Virus record (IMG/VR): IMGVR_UViG_3300043466_002109
Span: 1-20,792 of that record
Direction: 5' to 3' (one strand)
Source of the DNA: a virus
Length of the DNA stretch: 20,792 nucleotides
The position numbers were made by a program, and so were the translations under genes. The notes under the pieces were generated by a model, which saw nothing but the letters and a program-made list of their open reading frames with translations, made no database searches and was not told the DNA's origin. Positions within the stretch are counted from its first letter, which is position 1; the number at the start of each line of letters is the position of its first letter. Positions 1-3,472 of this stretch are shown here, piece after piece.

Positions 1-851
1 GATGCTCTAGATGGCGCTGAAGGTGGTTTAGTTGCTGTTGTTGGTCTAGGTTTTGGCTGTGGCTTATTTGTTGATGGTTGTGGTTTAGTTGTAGGTGAGG
101 GTTTGGTTGGTTCTGGAGTTGCCGTTGGTGAAGGACGACGATTTTTCCACCAATCTCTTAATTGGTTAGCAAATAATAATCCTTCTGCAGCATTTAATAC
201 ATTATCTAGCATTGAATTGCCGTCACCTTTATCATCCGTTGTAGTGTCATCATCTGTTCCTGTTGCGCCAGCTGCTGCACCACCAGCTGCTGCACCACCA
301 ACAACAGAATTTCTAGTATTTTTCTTTATTTTATTTCTACCGCGAGTTCCTACAGTCATTAACTGTAAGGCATTCATCTCTGCTCTCAACTGATCTATTT
401 GAAATTTAACAGTTCTTGATCTAAGAGGTGCTCTGACGAAAGAAACATTCATATCTTTTTTAGTAAACTTTCTCTGTGTTCTAAATGAACCTAGATCATT
501 ATACAAATTTTCTATCAGTACTGTGTTTCTTTCTGTGATAGAAGTTAGTGTGTTTAGTTTATTGTTTAAAGTAACAAGTGAATCTACAGTAAACTTTTTA
601 AATCTTCTTTCTATTGTTGCTTTTTTTCTGTTTTCTGATTCTTCTTTTTGTTGTTGTGGAGTCAACTTTCCATATTTCGATTGAGCGACTTGTGCTATCA
701 ACTCTGATCCCGTTAGAGACTTGACTATATTAAACACTGAATATCGCATAGCCAAATCTTCTCTGACCATAGAAACAAATGCAGCAGAAAGAGGCAAATT
801 CTTTCTGGATTTTATTGTGTATAGTTTTGATGATAGATCTGCTAATGACAT
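1..851 (-). CDS. Probable tape-measure or hub-associated tail protein (N-terminal part; runs off the left edge)
   Basis: The reading frame opens at ATG 851-849, overlapping the stop of the gp51-like frame (TAATG), and stays open to base 1, giving 283 codons; the C-terminus lies outside the window. Residues 1-60 are mixed and helical (MSLADLSSKLYTIKSRKNLP at the start). Residues about 60-195 are charged, Lys/Arg/Gln-rich and helix-prone, compatible with a coiled coil. A short Gly/Ala repeat (GGAAAGGAAAGA), an Asp/Thr patch, a helical stretch ending in RDWWKNRR, and a Pro/Thr-rich linker to the window edge follow. I see no catalytic motif. Established knowledge: in contractile and siphophage tails the gene after the tail chaperones is usually the tape measure, and T4 gp29 is its T4 form. 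The assignment is inferred from position plus the helical N-terminus. A hub or other structural protein is the alternative. Confidence 0.5.
   Translation of the reverse strand, partial: MSLADLSSKLYTIKSRKNLPLSAAFVSMVREDLAMRYSVFNIVKSLTGSELIAQVAQSKYGKLTPQQQKEESENRKKATIERRFKKFTVDSLVTLNNKLNTLTSITERNTVLIENLYNDLGSFRTQRKFTKKDMNVSFVRAPLRSRTVKFQIDQLRAEMNALQLMTVGTRGRNKIKKNTRNSVVGGAAAGGAAAGATGTDDDTTTDDKGDGNSMLDNVLNAAEGLLFANQLRDWWKNRRPSPTATPEPTKPSPTTKPQPSTNKPQPKPRPTTATKPPSAPSRA
268..297 (-). repeat. 15-bp tandem repeat, two exact copies, coding for GGAAA units
   Basis: The plus-strand 15-mer CCAGCTGCTGCACCA occurs twice back to back (268-282 and 283-297). On the minus strand it encodes repeated Gly-Gly-Ala-Ala-Ala in the linker of the probable tape-measure protein. 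The unit is a multiple of three, so copy-number change would keep the frame. Confidence 0.85.
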
Positions 852-1057
852 TATCGTTTTTTCGGTTTAAGTAGTTTTTTCATAGTTTCCTGAGACTCAA
901 CTTTCGTTTTGTTTATTCTATCTGTCTCTTCCTTCACCCAGTTATTCACCATTGAAATATACATATCTCGTTCCCATGGTAACATATTCTCAAGTTCAGT
1001 TAACGTATATTTGTACTGGTGAGTTAATGTGAACATATTATTGTAATATGCGCGCAA
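851..1057 (-). CDS. gp51: gp51-like small tail-assembly chaperone, probably made as a -1 frameshift extension of gp26
   Basis: A 68-codon frame ending in TAA at 853-851. It contains the segment LTELENMLPWERDMYISMV and a charged Lys-rich C-terminus. The 'sLtElenMlPWERdiY' pattern is one I associate with small proteins lying between gp26 and the tape measure in marine T4-like phages and with tail chaperones generally. If translated alone it would start at TTG 1057 or at the first in-frame ATG, 1036; neither has a Shine-Dalgarno sequence upstream, unlike most genes here. The frame is open upstream without a stop into the end of gp26, where a T TTT TTT heptamer gives an in-frame -1 fusion. I therefore read it as the C-terminal part of a gp26-gp51 fusion of about 326 residues. 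The role is inferred as a transient assembly factor for hub and tape measure. The match to T4 gp51 itself (249 aa) is by position and role only. Confidence 0.6.
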   Translation of the reverse strand: MRAYYNNMFTLTHQYKYTLTELENMLPWERDMYISMVNNWVKEETDRINKTKVESQETMKKLLKPKKR

Positions 1058-1087
1058 TGACCCATCGCGGAAAGTTAGATAAAAAAA
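1051..1087 (-). other. Putative programmed -1 frameshift site: slippery heptamer plus downstream hairpin
   Basis: Reading leftward, gp26 ends GAT TTT TTT ATC TAA. The last T of GAT plus the two TTT codons form the heptamer T TTT TTT (1087-1081) in the correct phase for tandem -1 slippage. Eleven bases later the minus strand reads CGCGATG-GGT-CATTGCG (1069-1053), a 7-bp stem with one G-U pair and a 3-base loop. After slippage the frame reads YLTFRDGS and then enters the small gp51-like ORF with no stop. The heptamer, phase and open frame are directly visible. That slippage occurs is inference from the lambda G/GT type of tail-chaperone frameshift. Confidence 0.65.
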
Positions 1088-1830
1088 TCGTTGAGACCCT
1101 CCAATACCAAATCATGTTGAAATGAACACTTCTCGCATGCATGTTTAACTTCTTTTTTAATTATTGGTAGACTGTTGAAAAATTCTAAGATCTTATCGAA
1201 TTGTTCTTGCGTCAAAGATTCTAGAAATTGTTTAAATTCTTCTAGCGATGATTCTTTGGAATAATAAACATTATTTGCGTCGAAGACGTATTCTGTACAA
1301 TCAAAAATTAACTCATAAATTTGTTCAGCATCTTCTGATAATATTAAATTCTTTATACTCTTAAATGTTTCTAGAGTTGGATACTTTAACTGCATACCAA
1401 CATCTTTTGTCATGTATACTTTTGTAGGTAAGTCGTTTATAGGTGGCTTGATCTCTAATAGATTCACCTTAACAGACATAAGGTTTTTACATTCCACTTG
1501 AACTTCTTCGCCTTGATCATCTGTGTACGATTCTACAATATTACGGCACACATATGCAGTATCTACTGTTTCTCCAACAGATCTAGCGCGAATGTTTAAA
1601 AACAAATATTCGATATCAAAAATTGGAATTGAGTTTATATCCAAATCATCAACCAAACAATTGTTAATAACTTGTTTAATTGTGTTTAAAACTGTTTGTT
1701 CTTCTTCAGTTTGCAGTGCCATTAACAACAACTTTTCTTCTTTAACCAAAAAAGGTCTAAACTTTATTGGTCTAGGAACAGACACTAGTTTTATTTCAAA
1801 TACAGGTAAATCAATTTTGGGCATTGGCAT
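1075..1830 (-). CDS. gp26: gp26-like baseplate hub assembly protein / tail chaperone (T4 baseplate family)
   Basis: A 251-residue protein (T4 gp26 is 208). The start is ATG 1830, with AGGAAA about 8 bases upstream overlapping the previous gene's end; the gap to that gene is 5 bases. N-terminal MPMPKIDLPVFEIKLVS is followed by the FRPFLVKEEKLLLMAL segment typical of the T4 baseplate (gp26) family. It contains C95, C114 and a C-terminal HACEKC (H230, C232, C235, then H239), suggesting a small metal-binding site. The ending VLEGLNDFF resembles ends of other phage tail-chaperone proteins. Residues 195-222 are acidic and helical. In T4, gp26 is needed for hub assembly; by position between a tube-fold gene and the tape measure it also matches the lambda gpG slot. 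Its last codons contain the slippery heptamer. Family assignment is fairly secure; metal binding is inference. Confidence 0.8.
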   Translation of the reverse strand: MPMPKIDLPVFEIKLVSVPRPIKFRPFLVKEEKLLLMALQTEEEQTVLNTIKQVINNCLVDDLDINSIPIFDIEYLFLNIRARSVGETVDTAYVCRNIVESYTDDQGEEVQVECKNLMSVKVNLLEIKPPINDLPTKVYMTKDVGMQLKYPTLETFKSIKNLILSEDAEQIYELIFDCTEYVFDANNVYYSKESSLEEFKQFLESLTQEQFDKILEFFNSLPIIKKEVKHACEKCSFQHDLVLEGLNDFFI

Positions 1831-3034: not shown

Positions 3035-3468
3035 TAAATTCCTAGATTCTTTTCAGTTATTACCTTAAATTTCCAATTTTTATCTTTGCAATACTCTATC
3101 GCGGCTTTCCATTTCGCCTCATTTATTCCATAAGTAACAACTTCTTGGATGTATTGTTTTGTGATTTTTTTCCTGGCAGTCGGTGGTATGGATTGCTTTT
3201 CGGGCTTCACTTCTAGTATTATGGTTTCTATGAGGTTTTGTTTGTTTCTAGTTCTTACCAGAAAGTCTGGAAAATATCTGTGCCAACGGTTATCCACTGG
3301 CGATAAATATGGTATGATAATTTCCTCACTCGACCATTCAATCACGCTTGAATTTTCATCCAAGTGCACCATAACTCGACGTTCCCAAAGAGATCTGTAC
3401 CAGATATTTGTTGGGTCGCCTAAATATTTATTAGGGTTTTTTGGGATATATTTTCCTGAATAAGCCAT
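3034..3468 (-). CDS. gp4: gp4 head completion protein (TnsA-like nuclease fold)
   Basis: 144 residues from ATG 3468 (T4 gp4 is 150); a TTG one codon upstream is also possible but ATG is preferred. The motif series matches the TnsA-like endonuclease fold: YRSLWERR with E29, a beta strand region ending EEIIIPY, HRYFPDF with D68, and ILEVKPEK with E86 and K88. All the expected acidic and Lys residues of a restriction-type active site (E...D...ExK) are present. In T4, gp4 finishes filled heads before tail joining and is needed for infectivity. It is the first gene of the leftward operon, diverging from gp48 across a 22-base gap, and it is coupled to the next gene through TAATG. Confidence 0.85.
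   Translation of the reverse strand: MAYSGKYIPKNPNKYLGDPTNIWYRSLWERRVMVHLDENSSVIEWSSEEIIIPYLSPVDNRWHRYFPDFLVRTRNKQNLIETIILEVKPEKQSIPPTARKKITKQYIQEVVTYGINEAKWKAAIEYCKDKNWKFKVITEKNLGI
3302..3309 (+). promoter_or_regulatory. Possible late promoter box GATAAATA for the rightward operon
   Basis: GATAAATA lies inside the gp4 gene on the opposite strand, about 180 bases before the gp48 ATG. It fits NATAAATA, 7 of 8 bases to the T4 late box. A weaker CCTAAATA (3419-3426) is closer to gp48. One of these must serve the plus-strand operon if it has its own late promoter near its head. Confidence 0.3.
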
Positions 3469-3472
3469 CAAC

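Follow-up and report, generated by a model that had tools for sequence, protein, structure and literature searches.

A stretch of 20,792 nucleotides from a virus (IMG/VR record IMGVR_UViG_3300043466_002109; hereafter the window) appears to carry one tail assembly chaperone gene that is decoded in two ways, as gp26 and, through -1 slippage of the ribosome, as a gp26-gp51 fusion. We put the probability of this reading at about 0.9; in this marine T4-type phage, ribosome slippage very probably lets a single gene yield both forms of the chaperone. According to the original prediction, gp26 and a gp51-like tail are joined by a programmed -1 frameshift and form a pair of the lambda G/GT type; comparative evidence strongly supports this.

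Layout of the chaperone locus

The gp26-like gene lies on the minus strand (1830-1075), and its short product (TAC-N, or "G") has 251 residues. Its 3' end reads GAT TTT TTT ATC TAA, so that the slippery heptamer T_TTT_TTT (1087-1081, minus strand) sits in the phase required for two-tRNA -1 slippage, one codon ahead of the zero-frame stop TAA (1077-1075, minus strand). The -1 frame has no stop until 853-851 and encodes a C-terminal extension of 76 residues plus stop (1081-851, minus strand; YLTFRDGS...KPKKR). The predicted fusion thus comes to 250 + 76 = 326 residues, with LEGLNDFF running directly into YLTFRDGS. The small open reading frame has no ATG at its natural start, the first candidates being TTG 1057 and ATG 1036. 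All of this (the in-phase heptamer and its position, the stop, the open -1 frame read as YLTFRDGS, products of 251 and about 326 residues, the missing ATG) had been described in the original prediction and is borne out by the window sequence. The locus has the marks of a G/GT pair, with an in-phase -1 heptamer just before the stop of the short reading frame and an open -1 extension that is conserved as protein with no start of its own. Upstream of gp26 is the tail tube gene (1836-2486; phrog_45); downstream, the start of the next gene (851-3, minus strand, cut by the window edge) overlaps the fusion stop as TAATG.

The gp26 product matches PF12322 (E 1.5e-53) and phrog_150. For the small open reading frame the hits are phrog_634 (2.5e-17; "baseplate hub assembly catalyst") and the C-terminal end of phrog_150. 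The short form is homologous to T4 gp26, and the extension to the C-terminus of T4 gp51. The predicted fold matches gp26/gp51-like phage proteins. The closest public phages by gp26 are cyanophages, at about 39% identity. Sequence and fold searches of the PDB for a solved chaperone relative gave no significant match; for the gp26 fold, HK97 gp13 (2ob9) ranked 13 with E = 5. Elsewhere in the window, the gp4-like head closure gene (3037-3471, minus strand) matches a TnsA-like endonuclease N-terminal domain (PF08722, 1.3e-22).

In the mechanism proposed here, most ribosomes would terminate at TAA 1077-1075 and release gp26. A minority, with two phenylalanine tRNAs on U_UUU_UUU, would slip back one base and stay in the -1 frame to complete the 326-residue gp26-gp51 fusion (TAC-NC, or "GT"). 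On the model of lambda G/GT and T4 gp26/gp51, the domain common to both products would coat the tape measure protein, while the extension would bring in the tail tube or hub. The site, its phase and conservation, the coding constraint beyond it and the homology of the proteins are what the sequences show; from them we infer that ribosomes slip here, how readily they would do so and what part the products would play in assembly. The role as tape measure chaperone is suggested by homology with T4 together with analogy to lambda. Two points count against the mechanism: in E. coli constructs U_UUU_UUU shifts less readily than A_AAA_AAG (PMC5009743), and the structure downstream of the site in the window is weak and varies among relatives.

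Conservation of the slip site

The slip site is kept throughout a wide range of relatives. A first scan of viral contigs gave 79 relatives (39-100% identity) whose junction could be read. Every one has T_TTT_TT[TCA] in phase, almost without exception 10 nt ahead of the zero-frame stop, and in all 79 the -1 frame is open into a gp51-like extension. A profile scan found the in-phase heptamer in 78 of the 78 loci read, within 16 nt of the stop in 77 and 31 nt before it in the remaining one (L182); it is likewise present in nine of nine MC09-like loci. It is also carried by 18 public phages, a set that takes in Kyanoviridae at one end and non-T-even Straboviridae at the other: S-ShM2, P-SSM2, MC09, Yut3, Desulfovibrio 7757, Rhizobium IG49, Aeromonas CC2, Vibrio XZ1, BUCT-ZZ01, P-HM1, AG-345-O18, HTVC008M, EniLVp02, phiM19, Astolliot, ACG-2014d, ACG-2014b and S-MbCM6. 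These represent Kyanoviridae, HTVC008M, Straboviridae (CC2, XZ1, EniLVp02) and phages of Rhizobium, Sinorhizobium, Desulfovibrio, Pseudomonas and Stenotrophomonas. Comparison of homologous junctions, the check put forward with the original prediction, shows the T run kept in phase across these sets and the fusion continuous in the 79 relatives of the first scan. A viral scan with Yut3 as query returned two near-identical loci only, and one with Vibrio D524 gp26 returned no relatives.

Exceptions to the heptamer in the wider scans are the Ackermannviridae loci and L090, whose junction shows an apparent indel. In the Ackermannviridae (L087, L200, L207) the junction reads ATT TTC in place of the TTTTTT heptamer, and in two Vibrio phages (L088, L204) it reads CTT TTC or GCT TTC with TAATG; the -1 extension is conserved in both groups. 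These five loci would use either a weaker shift or reinitiation. The mechanism at the Ackermannviridae junction is uncertain, and reinitiation could operate in Vibrio D524 and GR28A.

Elements that may stimulate the shift

A Shine-Dalgarno-like GAGG (1101-1098, minus strand) ends 10 nt before the heptamer and is a candidate 5' stimulator. GAGG or GAAGG is conserved at this spacing among the relatives. Over the 30 nt upstream of the heptamer the mean anti-Shine-Dalgarno pairing energy is -7.50 kcal/mol, versus -5.54 +/- 0.13 after synonymous resampling (the same amino acids re-coded at the codon frequencies of these genes) and -2.6 in the rest of gp26. Where the site encodes glutamate, the codon is GAG in 72 of 102 cases, against a background of 22%. 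As an initiation signal the element seems ill placed, since no start codon follows it at a usable spacing of 4-12 nt in 112 of 124 loci. In dnaX and in numerous IS elements an upstream Shine-Dalgarno element is known to stimulate the -1 shift (PMC5009743), and the slip here is probably helped by pairing of the ribosome's anti-Shine-Dalgarno sequence to the GAGG.

The hairpin to which the original prediction drew attention is present in the window (7 bp, 1069-1053, minus strand, after an 11-nt spacer) and is followed by a second (1051-1033, minus strand), but neither is conserved: across 25 relatives 61.1% of cells pair, versus 61.4% in shuffled controls, and the hairpin was rejected as a conserved stimulator. 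The role of the two hairpins is doubtful. Folding z is about -0.5 for 33 nt that hold the first hairpin and about -1.8 for both together, and the regional average lies only slightly above background structure (z -0.96 vs -0.32). In other sublineages the strong stems, where there are any, are unrelated to these. One sublineage (L018, L024, L036, L044, L046, L016) has its own stem of 8-10 bp, UUCCGUGGUA...UACUACGGAA, about 8 nt past the heptamer, a candidate lineage-specific 3' stimulator. The stimulator backed by sequence conservation is the upstream Shine-Dalgarno-like element, not a hairpin.

Codon choice and alternative explanations

Because a Phe-Phe pair could be kept for protein reasons, the proper test of the slip site is synonymous choice. 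Among 121 distinct loci (filtered to <10% shared 15-mers), T is the last base of the codon before Phe-Phe and TTT is the first Phe codon at the junction in 121/121, compared with 11/152 internal Phe-Phe sites of the same genes and 21/118 at a conserved internal Pro-Phe site; the loci have common ancestry, and these and the other locus counts are not independent. Chance is excluded for the junction TTTTTT. Past the junction, between the gp26 stop and a conserved Met, diversity in the -1 frame by codon position is 0.29/0.27/0.50, a pattern which indicates that residues upstream of that Met are under coding constraint.

Both results bear on the possibility that two separate genes are present, the gp51-like reading frame being translated from its own start (TTG 1057 or ATG 1036) or by ribosomes that reinitiate once gp26 has terminated. 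GenBank records do carry a separate "baseplate hub assembly catalyst gp51", and an ATG overlaps the gp26 stop in 11 of 124 loci as well as in the heptamer-less Vibrio phages GR28A and D524. Independent translation does not account for the coding constraint upstream of the conserved Met, however, and it leaves the synonymous fixation of the heptamer unexplained. In 25 of 124 loci (the 11 overlapping ones among them) an ATG stands no more than three codons from the slip site, so those loci could also make a free small protein, but the other 99 have no such ATG. The placement of the conserved Shine-Dalgarno-like element ahead of the heptamer, with the scarcity of starts after it, also speaks against separate translation, as does the containment of the whole gp26-like domain in T4 gp51. 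We regard separate genes as very unlikely in the window.

The codon at the second Phe site is free to vary, being TTC in 72, TTT in 49 and TTA in three of the 124 loci, and a fixed first codon with a free second one fits the pattern expected of tandem tRNA slippage. The same counts weigh on transcriptional slippage, in which RNA polymerase on the T run would alter the base count of the mRNA and standard translation would then yield the fusion. The window and many relatives do have seven T, and bacterial RNA polymerase is known to slip in this way where nine A or T stand in a row (PMC5009743); the 72 TTTTTTC loci, with six T only and the phase strictly kept, make this explanation less likely still than separate genes. 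A sequencing or assembly error in a truly single in-frame gene, suggested by the homopolymer at the junction and by the difference there between L090 and its close relative L089, is refuted by the recurrence of this junction, TTTTTTC versions included, in 18 public phages and well over a hundred contigs, and by a zero frame that almost always stops shortly past the slip site.

The gene downstream of the fusion

In relatives the gene after the fusion encodes 560-880 residues, several of the products with lysozyme or transglycosylase domains. This size and these domains would suit a tape measure protein but do not prove one, and it is plausible that the next gene in the window encodes it. By sequence the downstream gene has no match to T4 gp29 (PF25671), and homology to gp29 on that basis was rejected. 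The HTVC008M record annotates a tape measure two genes downstream of its gp51. In S-ShM2 (L197:1094-7962) the first gene after the chaperone encodes 1083 residues with a phage tail lysozyme domain and the second 1205 residues with a peptidase C39 and lysozyme pair; one of the two is probably the tape measure.

Origin of the separate genes of T4

In T4 each of the two forms has its own gene, and the two genes are divergently oriented; the window instead has a single gene with a shift site. The original prediction was right that genes 26 and 51 of T4 are separate, but gp51 is more than a counterpart of the extension: it is homologous to the fusion over the full length and paralogous to gp26 (BLASTP 2e-6; both PF12322). 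It covers phrog_150 over nearly its whole length plus phrog_634 (1.2e-23), and it aligns gap-free through the predicted fusion junction, colinear with the fusion. The slip sites are erased in both T4 genes, gene 26 ending GAG TTC TTT GAG and gene 51 reading GAC GTG TTT AAG. Since Straboviridae beyond the T-evens (CC2, XZ1, EniLVp02) keep the slip site, it would appear from these sequences that the T-even layout is derived, by duplication.

T4 gp26 (L082:5803-6429) also has a weak hit (E 9e-4) to phrog_1140, the profile of the gp28 family, and the end of T4 gp28 (L082:8349-8882), GNIIGLFE, resembles the gp26 end RGLKEFFELL; gp28 may be a third paralogue.

A broader scheme stands, in our estimate, at even odds. 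Beyond the T-evens, a fixed pair of U_UUU_UUY and a Shine-Dalgarno-like GAGG/GAAGG 10 nt upstream would drive the shift throughout the T4-like group, with 3' stems varying by lineage; the Ackermannviridae would have swapped in AUU_UUC, and the T-evens would have swapped the shift for gene duplication.

Annotation and comparison with known systems

None of the public records inspected annotates the joined gp26-gp51 product; gp51 is either separate or unannotated. In the GenBank records of ACG-2014d, ACG-2014b and S-MbCM6 (L208, L209, L210) the gp51-like extension is left as a gap between gp26 and the next gene. If the present reading holds, the "gp51" gene of the cyanophage records examined, or the unannotated gap, is the end of a fusion and re-annotation is due; abundant marine T4-type phages would be grouped with other long-tailed phages whose chaperone pairs arise through a frameshift, and the separate genes 26 and 51 of T4 would become the derived case.

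The original prediction knew of no such shift pair in T4-like phages, a view now superseded: according to papers that cite it, Vladimirov, Gautam and Davidson 2022 (Virology 566:9-15) identified the tail chaperone genes of T4-like phages, and the biology would, going by those citations, be largely published already. The citing papers describe some T4-like phages with separate short and long chaperone genes (PMC10885494) and poly-T slip signals in T4-like TAC-N genes (PMC12846349). The conserved Shine-Dalgarno-like element and the lineage survey may be new detail.

The locus resembles lambda gpG/gpGT in having a short chaperone, a -1 shift just before its stop, a long fusion and then a long gene, maybe the tape measure; it differs in its poly-T slip site, and the likeness is one of arrangement. 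Xu, Hendrix and Duda reportedly described this frameshift in 2004 as conserved among long-tailed phages. A 2016 review also held G-T frameshifting to be widely conserved, with T4 as an exception. For Vandenendeviridae/Andersonviridae, the account of Pseudomonas phage Adele (PMC12846349) describes a poly-T slip motif near the TAC-N end and a -1 extension that annotations usually list as a hypothetical gene of its own, much as here, but the motif is GTTTTT and the myovirus lineage another. E. coli dnaX shares an upstream Shine-Dalgarno stimulator of the -1 shift (PMC5009743), but has an A_AAA_AAG site and a defined stem-loop, and its shift yields the shorter product. With T4 gp26/gp51 the window shares PF12322 and phrog_150 in the short form and phrog_634 homology in the extension; T4 has separate genes, whereas the window, like most other lineages examined, has one gene and a -1 shift.
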